From the NCBI GenBank assembly GCA_025450575.1, contig JANWHE010000007.1, positions 1-41,294 on the forward strand: a stretch of 41,294 nucleotides of DNA. Reading direction: 5' to 3'. Position 1 is the first letter of the stretch, and each line of letters begins with the position of its first letter. A model generated the notes under the pieces. That model made no database searches and was not told the DNA's origin. It was given only the letters and a program-made list of their open reading frames with translations. Shown here one piece after another: positions 29,428 through 37,093 of this stretch. The position numbers and the translations under genes are program-made. The DNA comes from Candidatus Saccharimonadales bacterium (lineage in GTDB: Bacteria > Patescibacteriota > Saccharimonadia > Saccharimonadales > UBA10212).

Positions 29428-30306
29428 ATGGCACAAGCCAAGAAGAAAGCAACCCAACTTAAAGAAGCCGAGCTAATCGTCGAAGCCGCTCCGGTGAAAG
29501 CCGAGCCGGCTACCGAGGCCGCGGAAAAAGCGACGGCCAAGGCCGGCAAACGTAGCGCCAAAGCCGTTAAAGAGTTTGAAGATAAGCAAGCCAAGCAAGA
29601 GCGCAAGGCAACGGCACCGGAGACCGAATCTAAACCTGCGCCCGCTAAGGCTTCTAAGACCCGGGCCGAACGGGCCGGCAAGAAGTACCGTGAAGCCTTT
29701 AAGCTGATAGACAGGACCAAAGAGTACGCCCTGCCAGAAGCTTTGGAACTGGCCGCCAAGTCGTCTCCAGTTAAGTTCGATGCGTCAATTGAATTACATA
29801 TCAACCTGGGCGTTGACCCCAAACAGGCCGATCAAAACGTTCGCGACACTGTTGTTTTACCGGCAGGCACCGGCAAAGACATAAAGGTAGCGACGGTTTC
29901 AGACGACGCCAGCGCAGAAAAGCTATTCGCTAAGCTGGACAAAGAAGACATCGATTTTGACGTCCTTATTTCCACGCCAGACATGATGCCAAAACTGGGC
30001 AAATATGCTCGCCTGCTGGGACCACGCGGCTTGATGCCGAACCCCAAAAGCGGCACGGTTACTACAGATATAGCCAAAGCCCAGGCCGAGGCCAAAGCCG
30101 GCCGCGTGGAGTACCGGGTGGACCAGGCCGGCATCATCCATCTGGCGATCGGTAAGGTCAGCTTTGGGAAGGATAAGCTCAGCCAGAACGCCGAAGCCGT
30201 CATGGCCAGTGTCCGGGCCGCCAAGCCAGCCAGTTTAAAGAGTATTTACATCAAGAGCATCTACGCCAGCTCGACCATGGGCCCCAGCGTCAAAATCGCG
30301 GTCTAG
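29428..30306 (+). CDS. rplA: 50S ribosomal protein L1 with ~80-aa Ala/Lys/Glu-rich N-terminal extension
   Basis: KYREAFKLIDRTKEYALPEALELAAKSSPVKFDASIELHINLGVDPKQADQNVRDTVVLPAGTGK...LGKYARLLGPRGLMPNPKSGTV. Confidence 0.97.
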   Translation: MAQAKKKATQLKEAELIVEAAPVKAEPATEAAEKATAKAGKRSAKAVKEFEDKQAKQERKATAPETESKPAPAKASKTRAERAGKKYREAFKLIDRTKEYALPEALELAAKSSPVKFDASIELHINLGVDPKQADQNVRDTVVLPAGTGKDIKVATVSDDASAEKLFAKLDKEDIDFDVLISTPDMMPKLGKYARLLGPRGLMPNPKSGTVTTDIAKAQAEAKAGRVEYRVDQAGIIHLAIGKVSFGKDKLSQNAEAVMASVRAAKPASLKSIYIKSIYASSTMGPSVKIAV

Positions 30307-31073: not shown

Positions 31074-31166
31074 ATTTGGATTCTATATCATCTTAGGACG
31101 CCGGCATATTGGTAGCGCTTTAACCGGCCGGATATGTCTGCTAGACTTATCTTAAAGCGAGGGAAA

Positions 31167-32060
31167 ATGTACAAAGCTTACGAGAACCGTCAGCCGGATT
31201 ATCAGTACCAGAACATCTTAAAAGCAATCTTAAAAGATGGCGTTTGGAGCAGCACGCGTCAAGGGCCCAGGGCCAAGACCCTAATGGGCGTGCAGATGCA
31301 TTTTGAGCTGGCTAACGGCTTCCCGGTGATAACCGACCGCAGTATTAAAAGCTTCTGGCAGAAGCCCATCGGCGAACTGTGCGCCTTTATCAACGGCGCC
31401 CGGACCCGGGAGCAGTTGGCGGAATTCGGCTGTACCTGGTGGGACGCCTGGACATCCGAGGCAAAGACTAAGAAACGAGGCCTGGAGCCGGGCGACATCG
31501 GCCCCGGTTCATACGGCGCCGCTTTCCATGATTTCCCGACCGCCGACGGCGGCAGCTTTGACCAGTTCAAGCATCTGGTCGAACAAATCAAGGAGCTGCC
31601 TGAACTGCGGACACATTTTATTACTCCCTGGATCCCCCAGTACATCGTAAGGGGTAAAGGCAAACAACAGAAGGTAACCATAGCTCCCTGCCATGGCTGG
31701 GTACACGTACGGATACTTGACGACAAACTTTATCTGCATATGTACCAGCGCTCCGGCGACATGCCAATCGGCGTGCCATCTAACATGATCCAATACGCCG
31801 CCCTGGCTTTAATGCTGGGACATCTTACAGGGTACGAGCCAGTCCAATATGTCCATACCATTTCAGACGCCCACATTTATGAGGACCAGGTAGAGGCCCT
31901 GATGCCGATGCTGGAGCGCCAGCCCCGGCCATTCCCGACGGTTACCTTAACAGAGGAGGGAAAGCGCATCAAAGATATCCACGATTTCCGAGGCGAACAC
32001 TTCCAGTTAAGCGATTACGACCCGCAACCTTCAATCCCTAAGATTCCGGTGGCCACATGA
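31167..32060 (+). CDS. thyA: Thymidylate synthase (ThyA)
   Basis: FPVITDRSIKSFWQKPIGELCAFINGA, CTWWDAW, IAPCHGWVHVRI (catalytic Cys), LYLHMYQRSGDMPIGVPSNMIQYAALALMLGHLTGYEP. Confidence 0.97.
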   Translation: MYKAYENRQPDYQYQNILKAILKDGVWSSTRQGPRAKTLMGVQMHFELANGFPVITDRSIKSFWQKPIGELCAFINGARTREQLAEFGCTWWDAWTSEAKTKKRGLEPGDIGPGSYGAAFHDFPTADGGSFDQFKHLVEQIKELPELRTHFITPWIPQYIVRGKGKQQKVTIAPCHGWVHVRILDDKLYLHMYQRSGDMPIGVPSNMIQYAALALMLGHLTGYEPVQYVHTISDAHIYEDQVEALMPMLERQPRPFPTVTLTEEGKRIKDIHDFRGEHFQLSDYDPQPSIPKIPVAT

Positions 32061-32551
32061 TATCCCTAGTCGTCGCTTACGCTAAAAACGGGGTCATAGG
32101 ACGCGACAACGAGCTACCTTGGTATATTCCGGACGACCTTAAACGATTTAAGCAGCTGACGACTAATAAGACCGTTGTGATGGGCCGCAATACTTATGAA
32201 TCGATTGTCCGCCGCCTGGGCAAGCCGCTGCCGAACCGGCGCAATATCGTGGTTTCCGGCAGCCTTAAAGGACCGATAGACGGCATAGAGATCGCTCCGT
32301 CGCTGGAAGCAGCCCTAAAGTTAGCGGAAGATGATGAGGAAATCGTCCTTATCGGCGGCCAGCGGATATTCGAAGAAGCTATCGATAAGGATTTGGCGAA
32401 GCGGATCTACGCCACCGAAATCGACGCGGACATCGAAGGCGATACTTATTTCCCTGATTTAAATCCCGCGCATTGGCAGGTAAAGTCCACCGAGGATGGC
32501 GCCAGTCCCGATTATAAATACAAGTTCGTCCTATACGAAAGGGACGTTTAA
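32057..32551 (+). CDS. Dihydrofolate reductase
   Basis: MISLVVAYAKNGVIGRDNELPWYIPDDLKRFKQLTTNKTVVMGRNTYESI...VLIGGQRIFEEAI. Confidence 0.95.
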   Translation: MISLVVAYAKNGVIGRDNELPWYIPDDLKRFKQLTTNKTVVMGRNTYESIVRRLGKPLPNRRNIVVSGSLKGPIDGIEIAPSLEAALKLAEDDEEIVLIGGQRIFEEAIDKDLAKRIYATEIDADIEGDTYFPDLNPAHWQVKSTEDGASPDYKYKFVLYERDV

Positions 32552-32554
32552 AGC

Positions 32555-32998
32555 ATGGCGCTCTATAATTTCAACGCTGCCCGCTCCGAAGCCCAGTTAG
32601 CGGACATGAAAGATTTGGACGGGCGAGGCATCTGCATATTTTGCCCCGAGCACATACGGGAAGACGCTAATAAACTAGTCCTGGAAACCGACCATTGGAT
32701 GGTCAAACCGAACTCGTTCCCTTATAAGAACACGAAACTGCACCTTCTGATAATCCCTAAGGCGCACGTAGCGACTGTTAAAGAACTGCCCCAAAAAACC
32801 CAAAGCTCATTTTTGTCAGTGGTGGCGCAGCTAGAAGCTAAGTACATACTAGACAGTTACGCCCTAGGTATGCGGGCCGGAGACATGCGCTATAACGGCG
32901 GCAGTATAGAGCACCTCCATGCCCATTTGGTCGTAGGCGAGATAGACATGGCGGAATTCGAACCAGTGCGCTTTAAAATGAGCAGCCAGACGGATTAA
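32555..32998 (+). CDS. HIT-family protein
   Basis: CIFCPEH, TKLHLLIIPKAHVATV, GSIEHLHAHLVVGEID (HxHxH triad). Confidence 0.9.
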   Translation: MALYNFNAARSEAQLADMKDLDGRGICIFCPEHIREDANKLVLETDHWMVKPNSFPYKNTKLHLLIIPKAHVATVKELPQKTQSSFLSVVAQLEAKYILDSYALGMRAGDMRYNGGSIEHLHAHLVVGEIDMAEFEPVRFKMSSQTD

Positions 32999-33888
32999 GA
33001 AGAGCCGACGTAGGGGATATCGGCTGTGTGGCCACTCTTAGGCGGATCGGCGATTTCGACTTTCCGGACCCGGACGTGGTAGTCGTCTAAGATCCGCTTT
33101 CCGTCCAAGACGGCGTAGCCATCCTTGTAATAAAGGTTTTTGATGCCGCTATGGGCGATCAGTTTGGCGCAGGCCGGGCAAGGGAAGGCCGTCACATACA
33201 TCGACGCCCCTTTGGTGCTGTGCCCGGCATTGGCGGCTTCGGCTACCAGCCGGGCCTCGGCGTGGGTGAATAGCGACATTTCAATACCCACACCCCTGTT
33301 AAATACGTTCCGCGGATCACCTTCGGCCCACGGCGAATGCTCTGTCGGCTCCCCTCGGTTGCAAGCCGCTCCTAACTCGCGCCCGTCGGCACTGACCAGT
33401 ACGGCTCCCACCCGCCGCCATATATCAGAGCTTGAATCGGCTGCCTTAGCCGCTTGGCGCATCAGCTTTTGGTCAGCTTGGCGGCGGGAGACTTCGGCGC
33501 TCTCGTCAGGCTGGTCGACATTGTGGCGGTCCCAGCGCAGGAAAATCGGATAGAATGTCACCTTGGCTTTCTTGATGTCTTTGGCTATCTCACGGCTGAT
33601 GTCTTCGTCCGGCATGATGATTTCAACGTTCGGCTGATCTAATTTCTTAAGGCCGGCCGGGCTCAGTTCGGCTACCACGGAAAATCTGGTAATAGCTTCT
33701 AAACTTTTAACTGCTTTCGCCGGCGTTAAGGCCCGCAGGTCCTTGCGCAGGTAGTCGACTTTCTTAATCAGCTGGGGACCAAAGACATATAACTCGGCGG
33801 CATCGGAGTTAGCTTCCAGAAAATGCAGGTAGCCGCGGTGAATTACCGGTACATAGGCGGTGATGACTTTTTTAGAGCTGGCGCTCAT
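32995..33888 (-). CDS. dCMP-deaminase-like zinc deaminase fused to an N-terminal nucleotidyltransferase-like domain
   Basis: HAEARLVAEAA and TAFPCPACAKLIAHSGIKNLYY (deaminase motifs); N-terminal VITAYVPVIHRGYLHFLEANSDAAELYVFG. Confidence 0.85.
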   Translation of the reverse strand: MSASSKKVITAYVPVIHRGYLHFLEANSDAAELYVFGPQLIKKVDYLRKDLRALTPAKAVKSLEAITRFSVVAELSPAGLKKLDQPNVEIIMPDEDISREIAKDIKKAKVTFYPIFLRWDRHNVDQPDESAEVSRRQADQKLMRQAAKAADSSSDIWRRVGAVLVSADGRELGAACNRGEPTEHSPWAEGDPRNVFNRGVGIEMSLFTHAEARLVAEAANAGHSTKGASMYVTAFPCPACAKLIAHSGIKNLYYKDGYAVLDGKRILDDYHVRVRKVEIADPPKSGHTADIPYVGSS

Positions 33889-34490
33889 GCGTCTTTGATC
33901 ATTTTTTCGAACGTCTCGTTAATCGAGTCGGTAATAGCGTCCTTCATTTTTTGTGATAAACCGATATTCAGTCGTCTAAGTTTGGCTGTCGTAGAAGTCA
34001 CGGCCTGGGGCTCAAGAATAAAGACCTGGCCGCAGAATTTCTTCAGCTGCTTTACCTGCGCCGGGCTATAAGTCCCTTTAGTGGCAATCAGCACGTCCGG
34101 CTTAACTAGCTTTATAAGCGACCATTTGGGGTCGCTATCCTGTTTTAGGGCGACGATGTCGACATGCCTTACATGGGTCAACATCTGCACCCGCTCCTTT
34201 TCGCTGACGATAGGCCGGTCCGGCCCTTTGCGCCGGCGTACCTTTTTATCACTGTCGACACCTACAATCAGGACATCGCCGTGCTGTTTGGCCTTCTCCA
34301 GATACAGAAAATGGCCGATGTGGATAAAATCGAACGTGCCCTGGGTCAGTACGATTTTGGCGCCGATTGTCCGAAGCGCGTTTATCACTTCGGCCAGCTG
34401 GCGCTTATCTTCAATAAACCTGCCCTTAGAATCGAGCAGAAAGCCGGTCTGAGCGGAATCCAATTTCTTAACTTTTCCCCCGTTAGCCAT
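33885..34490 (-). CDS. RfaE/HldE C-terminal-like cytidylyltransferase
   Basis: VLTQGTFDFIHIGHFLYLEKAKQHGDVLIVGVDSDKKVRRRKGPDRPIVSEKERVQML; start likely ATG 34490 (MANGGK). Confidence 0.9.
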   Translation of the reverse strand: MANGGKVKKLDSAQTGFLLDSKGRFIEDKRQLAEVINALRTIGAKIVLTQGTFDFIHIGHFLYLEKAKQHGDVLIVGVDSDKKVRRRKGPDRPIVSEKERVQMLTHVRHVDIVALKQDSDPKWSLIKLVKPDVLIATKGTYSPAQVKQLKKFCGQVFILEPQAVTSTTAKLRRLNIGLSQKMKDAITDSINETFEKMIKDA

Positions 34491-34549
34491 CCTATATAAA
34501 ATATTACCTTTCGCCGGTTTTAGCAATTTTATTATCTTATAAGTTAACC

Positions 34550-34555
34550 TATAAT
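34550..34555 (+). promoter_or_regulatory. -10 box TATAAT upstream of the Tmk-ThyX-like fusion
   Basis: ttaaccTATAATacaccttAGAAGGAGaagacgcgCTG. Confidence 0.55.
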
Positions 34556-34578
34556 ACACCTTAGAAGGAGAAGACGCG

Positions 34579-36513
34579 CTGAAAGGTATTTTTATTGCTT
34601 TGGAAGGTTCGGAAGGCTCCGGCGTGGCCGCTCAGCTTGGCCTGCTGGCCGAACGGCTTAAAGCCGTCGGCTATGAAGTGGCCGTCTACTCTTTCCCCAG
34701 ATACCAGGCCGGCTCCAGCCACTTTATAAAAGAATATTTAAACGGCGGCTACGGTCCGTCCGACGAAATAAGCCCTTATACGGCTACTCTATTTTACGCT
34801 TTGGATAGGTATGAAGCGTCAAAAGCCATCAACCGGGACCTTAGCGACGGCAAAATCGTACTGGCCAACAATTATGCCGGGGCGAATATGGCGCTGCAGG
34901 GCGCTAAGTTCGGCGATCCGGTCGAACAAAGAGGGTTTTTCGTCTGGAACGATAATTTAGAGTATGAACTTCTTAAATTGCCGCGCCCCGACACCAACAT
35001 GTTTTTACGAGTGCCCGCTGCGGTGTCGCGTGAGCTCGTAGAAAAAAGCGATGGGGCTAGTTCCGTCGAACAGCTTAAAAAGTCGGTAACGACTTATGAT
35101 CTTTTGTGCCGGCTGTTCCCTAAGGATTTCAAAGCCATAGACTGCGTCAAAAGCGGCCAGCTGCTGAACATCCCGGATATCAGTAACTTGATATGGGATA
35201 AGATTAAGCCGATACTGCCCGCCGATAAGCCCAAAGCCGGCCGCAGCACCGTAGTGACCCTGGGTGGTGCTGCCCCAAGCACCTCCGAGTTGCCGAAAGA
35301 GTCCGCGCCGGACAAACTAAGAATGCCGTTTAAGTCATCCAGCTTGCTGCTTAGGCTGGAAATCGAAAAGGCCAGTCCCGGCAGTACCGGGCCGAAAGAC
35401 GGCCCGTGGTCTGACGCCGGCTATGAATTTTATACGCCGCGGGAACTGCCTAAAGAGCTCAAGGCAGATTACCGGGATATTATCAGCGGCCTGGCGGACA
35501 AGCAGAGTCGGCTGGTCGAAAAACTGATCGATTACATCGAAAAGCGGCCAGCCGCCAAAAGACCTAATTTAAGCGTTTCTTATCTGGCCGCGCCGGTGAC
35601 ACCGTTAGGCGCGATAGCGCCGTTCGAGGTGGCGCTAGATAAGTCGTCAGTCCTGCCTTTGGTACAGCGCCTGCTGGAGGCTGCCTTGCCGGAAGCCCAA
35701 TGGGCCGCCAAGCAGCTTTACTTAACGGCCCGGCAGGTCTGGCCGGCTGATTTTAAGCAGCCCCTAGAAACCAGCGACGACGTGACGCCTATCGGCAGCA
35801 TCATCGCCAGGCTTGCCCAAGAGAGGCTGTCGTCATCAAACGCCGACCAGCCGGTCAAGCTGCTAGAAGCAGTGCCCAGGCAGGAATTTGACCTTTTAGC
35901 GGAGACTATCTACCCTTTCAGTAATCTGCCGCTCGACGAGATTACAGAAGAAGTGGCCGAGTGGCCTTACCAGCAAAAATATGACAATCTGCGCCGGGCG
36001 GCCTCCCAGCCGGATGTCCTGAGCAAAGTGCATTACAAAATGGACGTTATCTCTGATCAGATAAGCATGATATCGCTGGCTCAAGCGGCCGGGCTTAAGC
36101 ATCTGCAAGCCCAGCCGGTCAGTCCAAGGTATGGTTTTGAAGTACCGCAGATTTTCGAAGACGCCAACCTAGACGATTTATATAACGATTGCTTCGACGG
36201 AAGCCTGCGTCTTTACAGCCTGCTGCAGGCCGCCGGCCAGGAAGAAGCCGCCGGCTACGCGGCTCTTATGGGGCACAAAGTCAGGTGGCAGCTTAATGCC
36301 AGCGCCGCTGGCTTTTACGCCGCTTATAAAGCAGATGATTCACCCAAAAAACTGCTTAGTGCGGTTATCCGAACCGCTGCCGAAGCTCACCCCCTGCTAT
36401 GGGATATGCTAGTAGAGCCGGCTGACGCGAAAAAAGATGTCAGTCGTCCCGCCGTCCAGACCCGCGTCAAACCGGCCCAGCGCCACCGCGGCGGCAAACC
36501 CAAAAAATCCTAA
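34579..36513 (+). CDS. Fusion: thymidylate-kinase-like domain (degenerate P-loop) + ThyX-like region (catalytic motif apparently lost); apparent CTG start
   Basis: LKGIFIALEGSEGSGVAAQLGLLAERL...LFYALDRYEASKAINRDLSDGKIVLANNYAGANMALQG (Tmk-like); EFDLLAETIYPFSNLPLDEI, SPRYGFEVPQIFEDANLDDLYNDCFDGSLRLYSLL, MGHKVRWQLNASAAGFYAAYKADDSPKKLLSAVIRTAAEAHPLLW (ThyX-like). SD AGAAGGAG 8 nt upstream of CTG 34579. Confidence 0.75.
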   Translation: MKGIFIALEGSEGSGVAAQLGLLAERLKAVGYEVAVYSFPRYQAGSSHFIKEYLNGGYGPSDEISPYTATLFYALDRYEASKAINRDLSDGKIVLANNYAGANMALQGAKFGDPVEQRGFFVWNDNLEYELLKLPRPDTNMFLRVPAAVSRELVEKSDGASSVEQLKKSVTTYDLLCRLFPKDFKAIDCVKSGQLLNIPDISNLIWDKIKPILPADKPKAGRSTVVTLGGAAPSTSELPKESAPDKLRMPFKSSSLLLRLEIEKASPGSTGPKDGPWSDAGYEFYTPRELPKELKADYRDIISGLADKQSRLVEKLIDYIEKRPAAKRPNLSVSYLAAPVTPLGAIAPFEVALDKSSVLPLVQRLLEAALPEAQWAAKQLYLTARQVWPADFKQPLETSDDVTPIGSIIARLAQERLSSSNADQPVKLLEAVPRQEFDLLAETIYPFSNLPLDEITEEVAEWPYQQKYDNLRRAASQPDVLSKVHYKMDVISDQISMISLAQAAGLKHLQAQPVSPRYGFEVPQIFEDANLDDLYNDCFDGSLRLYSLLQAAGQEEAAGYAALMGHKVRWQLNASAAGFYAAYKADDSPKKLLSAVIRTAAEAHPLLWDMLVEPADAKKDVSRPAVQTRVKPAQRHRGGKPKKS

Positions 36514-36538: not shown

Positions 36539-37093
36539 ATGAGAAAACTGATTATGTGGAATCTGATTACGCTCGATGGGTTTTTCGAGGGTGAAAAGCC
36601 GTGGGATCTTGGTTTCCACGGTCTGGTTTATGACGACGAGCTTGAGGATTTTACAATCAAGCAGCTACAGACGGCCGACGCGGTCATTTATGGCGAGAAT
36701 ACGTATAAAGGCATGGCTGACTATTGGACCGCGCCCGACCAAGCCGCTGATGTTAAGACTGAACCCATCAACACTATGAAAAAATACGTCTGTTCCCCTA
36801 CTTTAGAAACCGCCGACTGGCAAAATACTACGATCATAAAAGACGCCGTGGCCGAGATACCCAAACTGAAGCAGGACGGCGACGGCAATCTGTTTGTTTT
36901 CGGCAGCGCGATTCTATCCGACTCGCTGATGAAGGCGGACCTGTTCGACGAGTACCGCCTATGCGTTGTCCCGGTATTTCTAGGCAAAGGCCGCCGGCTG
37001 TTCAACGACGGCCTGCCATATCAGAAATTAAAGCTCCTAAATTCCCAGCCGCTAAAGTCCGGCGCCATAATCCTTACTTACACTCCGAACTAA
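36539..37093 (+). CDS. Dihydrofolate reductase-like / RibD C-terminal-domain protein
   Basis: MRKLIMWNLITLDGFFEG...AVIYGENTYKGMADYW...LFVFGSAILSDSLMKADLFDEYRLCVVPVFLGKGRRLF. Confidence 0.9.
   Translation: MRKLIMWNLITLDGFFEGEKPWDLGFHGLVYDDELEDFTIKQLQTADAVIYGENTYKGMADYWTAPDQAADVKTEPINTMKKYVCSPTLETADWQNTTIIKDAVAEIPKLKQDGDGNLFVFGSAILSDSLMKADLFDEYRLCVVPVFLGKGRRLFNDGLPYQKLKLLNSQPLKSGAIILTYTPN

Follow-up and report, generated by a model that had tools for sequence, protein, structure and literature searches.

The window, the whole 41,294-nucleotide stretch of DNA analyzed in this work, comes from a member of the Saccharibacteria (CPR/Patescibacteria). Between the ribosomal protein genes rplA and rplJ it harbors a cassette of five genes, followed by a gene coding for a dTMP kinase (Tmk) domain fused to a remnant of tandem ThyX domains. 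The features of the locus are as follows.

29428..30306, + strand: rplA (L1), left anchor
31134..32060, + strand: cassette thyA, of a divergent type and with its active-site motifs
32057..32551, + strand: dihydrofolate reductase (DHFR; PF00186, E=5.3e-53)
32555..32998, + strand: HIT-family protein, HxHxH present
32995..33888, - strand: dCMP/cytidine deaminase-type protein with an extra N-terminal domain, HAE and PCxxC present
33885..34559, - strand: HUP-type nucleotidyltransferase (NTase) resembling RfaE domain II; the actual start probably lies downstream of 34559
34550-34555, + strand: TATAAT, seen by eye alone, without support from a promoter scan
34565..34570, + strand: Shine-Dalgarno sequence AAGGAG, a good match 8 nt before CTG 34579
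34579..36513, + strand: Tmk::ThyX-remnant fusion gene (644 aa; AlphaFold mean pLDDT 88.4)
34579..35220, + strand: Tmk domain, catalytically degenerate (aa 1-214; PF02223, E=1.7e-13; Foldseek match to Tmk, TMt 0.84)
34603..34635, + strand: dead P-loop EGSEGSGVAAQ (aa 9-19; D12E, K16V, T18A)
34867..34875, + strand: DR(Y) motif, reading NNY (aa 97-99); R98N is a new loss
35041..35067, + strand: site of the LID deletion (aa about 155-163); relatives have RxYTxxxRDxHEAD or at least DxHE
35221..35313, + strand: linker (aa 215-245), disordered in part, with pLDDT 38-54 around aa 221-240
35314..36423, + strand: tandem ThyX remnant (aa 246-615), which lacks the beginning of ThyX domain 1
36082..36090, + strand: position of the ThyX RHR motif, reading QAA (aa 502-504); the SPRYG after it is kept
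36424..36510, + strand: disordered Lys/Arg-rich C-terminal tail, net charge +7 over the last 25 aa
38557..39081, + strand: rplJ (L10), right anchor, named from its sequence and position, with 59 homologues in relatives

The coordinates, frame and motifs given for the fusion in the initial annotation were confirmed on the window sequence. The frame comprises 644 codons without a stop, and 652 codons from stop to stop. Its earliest canonical start is a TTG at 34600, whose use would remove strand beta-1 of the kinase; the CTG at 34579 is the sole start codon that retains this strand (KGIFIA), which agrees with that of relatives. Because of the Shine-Dalgarno sequence and of the match of beta-1 to the relatives, the protein is probably translated from this near-cognate codon. 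A promoter scan before the fusion found no consensus site, and TATAAT at 34550 is therefore an observation by eye only. The codon-position G+C of the gene is similar to that of expressed neighbors, and a search for repeats flanking the region, i.e., the sign of an inserted element, found none. On its other side, a RibD_C/DHFR-like protein (36539-37093) is 86% identical to the protein downstream of the fusion in genome G005 (L048:11910-12470). As this value far exceeds the closeness of the two species, the gene was probably transferred.

A relative of the window protein is present in 57 of the 61 genomes of the order. The common form of the fusion, 770-820 aa long, is composed of a Tmk domain with EGTDGSGKGTQ and NRF, followed by a tandem ThyX with RHRMVDD and ELRTSPQGHPGYR. 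Synteny in the relatives reads rplA, dCTP deaminase (PF22769), fusion, rplJ, and the deaminase gene lies directly upstream of the fusion in the majority of Saccharibacteria, at L108:7257-7982 and about 80 other loci. Judging from the functions of these families, the ancestral locus would have covered the route from dCTP to dUMP, dTMP and dTDP. The dCTP deaminase of the sister species is absent from the whole window genome, which is 87% complete. A literature search found neither a Tmk-ThyX fusion nor a ThyX pseudoenzyme; the Saccharibacteria Tmk::ThyX::ThyX fusion between rplA/DCD and rplJ was recognized here and is absent from the papers searched. The window gene corresponds to it in gene, place and domain order. 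However, both halves of the fusion are mostly intact outside the GTDB family of the window, whereas in the window neither is.

Degeneration of the Tmk and ThyX halves

The homology of the N-terminal half to Tmk is significant. It matches PF02223 with 51.1 bits for a gathering cut-off of 27 (E=1.7e-13), the NCBIfam dTMP kinase model PRK07933 with E=9.5e-25, yet under that model's own cut-off, and Tmk of Mycobacterium tuberculosis (Mtb; 4unn) with E=1.5e-11. Foldseek run on the window model matched this part to Tmk with a TM-score to the target of about 0.84. A fold search of the PDB returned Tmk throughout among the 50 matches listed, and it therefore gave no direct reading on ThyX. Compared with Tmk of the Mtb type, the window domain (aa 1-214) has the same fold and has largely kept the acceptor-pocket residues, but it lacks the P-loop Lys and Thr, the Arg of the DR motif and the LID, and it carries the ThyX remnant.

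The P-loop reads EGSEGSGVAA in the window and EGSDGSGK(A/T)T in sister species, such that GSEGSGVAA departs from the pattern GxxGxGK[ST]/[GT]T by substitution of both K and T; the replacement of the P-loop Lys noted initially is thus real (K16V, together with T18A). The reading of DR(Y/H) as NNY also stands and does not conform to DR[YHF], but it is not the double loss that it seemed: N occupies the D position in 54 of 88 homologues, so the D-to-N change is ancestral and only R98N is new. The LID segment, present in all 14 family members compared, is absent. In contrast to these losses, F36, R38, Y39, R74 and N100 of the acceptor pocket (Mtb numbering) are retained and F70 is a Tyr, as in relatives; the thymidine pocket is preserved apart from H/Y103, which is gone. 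K16V, T18A, R98N and the LID deletion are together predicted to abolish Tmk catalysis.

These losses are local. The P-loop, the catalytic Arg and the DxHE of the LID are present in 14 of the 14 other members of the GTDB family, the P-loop Lys is found in 75 of 80 homologues in which this column is represented, and among about 80 homologues its loss is limited to the window and three unrelated lineages. The idea that K to V and R to N might be old and fixed in CPR homologues was rejected, since the sisters are intact; because the other family members have an intact P-loop, the Tmk half of the window must have died recently, in its own lineage. Of the 63 Tmk residues identical in the 14 other family members, 10 are altered in the window (D12E, K16V, T18A, R98N, H106L, S70T, I134L and the deleted D, H and E of the LID). 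The changes affect 7 of 12 P-loop, DRY and LID sites versus 3 of 51 elsewhere (Fisher p=1.3e-4), leaving 48 of these 51 invariant residues intact. Dead Tmk parts have arisen independently in genomes G017, G052 and, in the form of a shorter remnant, G041, where the acceptor pocket has disappeared too.

The assignment of the C-terminal half to ThyX in the initial annotation proved correct. Residues 278-612 can be aligned, with E-values as low as about 2e-42, to the C-terminal region of intact fusions, each of which has two PF02511 (Thy1) stretches, and the family profile matches Mtb ThyX (3gwc). Among viral models, Foldseek retrieved a two-domain ThyX of 491 aa from Microcystis phage LMM01, with TMt 0.48 over 522 alignment columns, and further matches to THY1/ThyX entries. 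The AlphaFold model, whose pLDDT falls below 50 only at aa 227-240 and in the tail at 616-640, is confident; the input alignment of 49 sequences (the window and its relatives) includes intact relatives, so that the model leans toward the family fold. The remnant is homologous to tandem ThyX via the intact fusions and has a ThyX-like model fold, but it lacks RHR, the ELRTSPQGHP signature and part of domain 1, and it has an added basic tail. No PF02511 match was obtained at E<=1 with the window protein, and the scan of its genome was also negative. As first reported, the RHR-type motif is missing, QAA standing in its place; intact relatives read RHR(M/I)VDD, which differs from the textbook RHRxxS. 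The second active-site signature (ELRTSPQGHPGYR in relatives) is absent from the window protein. Its ThyX part is about 130 aa shorter than in intact fusions, and the intact relative at L149 (783 aa) has extra elements opening ThyX domain 1 that the window lacks.

Decay of this half concerns the whole GTDB family. With few exceptions, its fusions have shrunk to 557-699 aa, have neither RHR nor the second signature and have a Lys/Arg-rich end, RHR being absent from every degenerate member. The basic tail is found in 12 of the 12 complete degenerate members, with a mean charge over the last 25 aa of +7.7 versus -1.0 in intact fusions (Mann-Whitney p=1e-7, relatedness ignored). In the gene set of the window, most of the proteins with equally basic tails are encoded in the ribosomal region, which suggests a possible contact with RNA. 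In twelve genomes of the family, ThyA is present and Thy1 gives no strong match. Two others (G005 and G012) have no ThyA but a separate, RHR-bearing ThyX besides the degenerate fusion. In G010 the ThyX fusion is still intact and is joined to a different type of Tmk, G003 shows neither, and the ThyX half is wholly gone from G008 and G013. Given the separate ThyA or ThyX of relatives, thymidylate can be made without the remnant, which most members nevertheless retain. The family comparison indicates that the ThyX half died before the Tmk half, family-wide.

The thyA cassette and the dTMP kinase step

ThyA and DHFR had been described beside the fusion as part of a gene island, and the island is real: it represents a cassette, shared horizontally, that has taken the place of the older pathway genes. 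The thyA gene of the window shares 76% identity with its counterpart in L149 (MGCQ01000001), versus about 33% with that of a sister genome, and the cassette was therefore shared horizontally. Transfer of thyA into Patescibacteria has been reported (PMC12455944). The five cassette genes lie beside an intact fusion in L149 (10358-13756) and beside a dead one in G017. In G099, G128, G247, G259 and G327, the cassette occupies the rplA-rplJ interval, with no fusion and no recognizable Tmk. We infer from these states a replacement series, ordered from snapshots rather than from a dated tree, in which the window would stand midway. Among relatives, loss of ThyX tracks gain of ThyA, which supports stepwise replacement.

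The arrangement thyA-dhfr-HIT/deaminase-NTase at rplA-rplJ occurs across Saccharibacteria families (window:31134-34559, L149:10358-13756, L221, L222, L223, L224 and L225), and the N-terminal domain of about 130 aa in the deaminase-type protein (window:32995-33888) is conserved in the cassette. In G017, an apparent DHFR-HIT fusion comes straight after thyA (L081:2930-3880). A second type of cassette (L118:3413-7836, L089:3725-7645, L090:3372-7838) combines another class of thyA with DHFR/RibD_C, phosphotransferase (APH), NTase, HIT and deaminase genes, HIT being fused to the deaminase in some cases.

A concrete gap emerges from these genomes: several Saccharibacteria that have ThyA lack a recognizable dTMP kinase. 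The second intact tmk that the initial annotation proposed to look for was not found in the window genome by a PF02223 search; as this genome is only 87% complete, an intact copy may have escaped detection. Tmk is likewise missing from nearly complete genomes of relatives that carry this cassette, and no recognizable Tmk was found in other Saccharibacteria, two of them 99% complete. A plausible live Tmk is present in 3 of 11 genomes with the cassette type of thyA versus 343 of 385 others (p about 5e-6, uncorrected for phylogeny). This association is strong but confounded by phylogeny, although genus g86 comprises both Tmk-less cassette carriers and other species with Tmk.

The T4-type dNMP kinase (PF21448) was considered as a substitute and rejected for the window, whose genome does not have it. 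It adjoins the locus in many relatives and also in G052 and G026, where this DNMK-like kinase may substitute for the dead or lost Tmk. Related P-loop kinases lie near the locus in 17 of 61 relatives (e.g., L089:2925-3701, L090:9199-10029 and L088:4777-5538). No cassette gene has a Walker A motif. In the window organism, the candidates for the dTMP step are that it may be performed by an unrecognized kinase, bypassed through a route encoded by the cassette, or replaced by import of host nucleotides. In one chemically possible scheme, the HUP nucleotidyltransferase would adenylylate dTMP and the HIT protein would then perform phosphorolysis. That the cassette or a co-traveling gene supplies a novel dTMP-to-dTDP step, making both halves of the fusion dispensable and the dead fusion a fossil that reveals the replacement, is supported by the scarcity of live Tmk in genomes with this thyA and by the missing Walker A motif, but we consider it unlikely.

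Retention or decay of the fusion protein

Two degenerate dTMP-related folds in one chain, with catalysis expected from neither, had been proposed at the outset, and both the motifs and the folds bear this out. Sequence could hardly establish the origin of the fusion and the double loss of its catalytic motifs more firmly, and we consider both highly probable. Catalytic residues are lost, and the frame and the residues of the fold are still constrained. In a rough model of random substitutions that leaves out indels, about 73 changes, affecting 3.8% of bases, suffice to create a stop codon with P>0.95, and the chance that at least 7 of the 12 catalytic codons change within those 73 is about 1.5e-5; together with the 644 open codons, this indicates that the frame was kept after catalysis was lost. 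The branch length of the ThyX-like half is 0.70 in the window versus 0.76 in the sister, and that of the Tmk half is 0.77 versus 0.16 and 0.49 in sisters, the longer branch being the expected effect of relaxed constraint. The sister proteins are about 50% identical, a divergence at which silent sites would be saturated. These lengths are most naturally explained by a constraint that has not changed for the C-terminal module but has been partly relaxed for the Tmk half, which favors retention over decay. We therefore regard a retained double pseudoenzyme, caught midway through the replacement of a pathway locus, as the probable state of the window gene.

The serious rival, less probable in our view but a real possibility, is that the gene has been functionless since the arrival of the ThyA cassette, is unbroken as yet, and is headed for deletion as in other carriers. 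The accelerated Tmk branch, the CTG start and the disappearance of the gene where the cassette fills rplA-rplJ (G099, G128, G247, G259 and G327) all speak for it, as does streamlining, which is general in CPR genomes. Such a relic is nevertheless hard to reconcile with a frame of 644 codons that stayed open through several specific substitutions and a deletion, with changes that cluster at catalytic sites and not across invariant sites, and with a ThyX-like half that evolves at the rate of the sister's. Dead versions also persist in G017, G052 and G041, the last without ThyA and ThyX. Conversely, the loss of the ThyX half in G008 and G013, and of the whole gene in G026, G099 and G128, means that no common function forces retention.

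Continued dTMP kinase activity by an unusual mechanism is very improbable. The domain is the sole PF02223 protein found in the genome, and since thyA and dhfr are present something must phosphorylate dTMP, but the P-loop has lost both Lys and Thr, together with the loss of the catalytic Arg and of the LID, and the Saccharibacteria without a recognizable Tmk mentioned above live nonetheless. An error of assembly, binning or sequencing is less credible still, even though the genome is a draft of 26 contigs: for the losses to arise, codons at several sites had to change in more than one base and a deletion had to stay in frame, with no frameshift anywhere, the flanking ribosomal genes agree with the genus, and independent parallel cases exist.

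Retention as a double pseudoenzyme can be accounted for by the following scheme. A housekeeping Tmk with two ThyX domains and a dCTP deaminase would have formed a dCTP-to-dTDP locus between rplA and rplJ. Comparison of the relatives shows the next two steps. First, the FAD/dUMP motifs and a portion of domain 1 disappeared from ThyX of the family, which gained a basic tail, its chemistry passing to a separate ThyA or a separate ThyX. The thyA-dhfr-HIT-dCMP deaminase-NTase cassette then displaced the dCTP deaminase beside the window fusion, after which the Tmk half lost its ATP-phosphate site (K16V, T18A, LID) and its Arg (R98N), with survival of the fold and of most of the thymine/dTMP acceptor pocket. 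The protein would still be made from CTG and kept for a noncatalytic role, most likely as a binding protein whose folded core may hold dTMP-like ligands or partner proteins and whose disordered basic tail resembles the tails of ribosomal proteins that touch RNA. Given retention, the likeliest class of putative function is the one suggested at the outset, in which the protein would regulate thymidylate supply, sense nucleotides for it or act as its scaffold, with a relic as the serious rival.

Yeast Rnr4 and the PRPP-synthetase-associated proteins are retained pseudoenzymes of nucleotide metabolism. Like them, the window protein is catalytically dead and probably kept, and theirs is a structural or regulatory role; unlike it, they work beside a live paralogue, none of which was found in the window genome. 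The intermediates present in living lineages show how a dCTP deaminase and a Tmk::ThyX fusion are replaced by an unrelated cassette, active site by active site, and this in bacteria whose genomes supposedly hold nothing useless. Whether CPR bacteria, with their streamlined genomes, retain dead enzymes because these serve structure or regulation can be tested cleanly on this fusion.

Other states of the gene were observed in the order. In G041 (L095:5301-6824), the dead Tmk/ThyX remnant persists in a genome, 90% complete, in which neither ThyA nor ThyX was found. In G048 (L070:7034-9373), stop codons break an intact-looking fusion into two frames, one with Tmk and a portion of ThyX and one with the remainder of ThyX.
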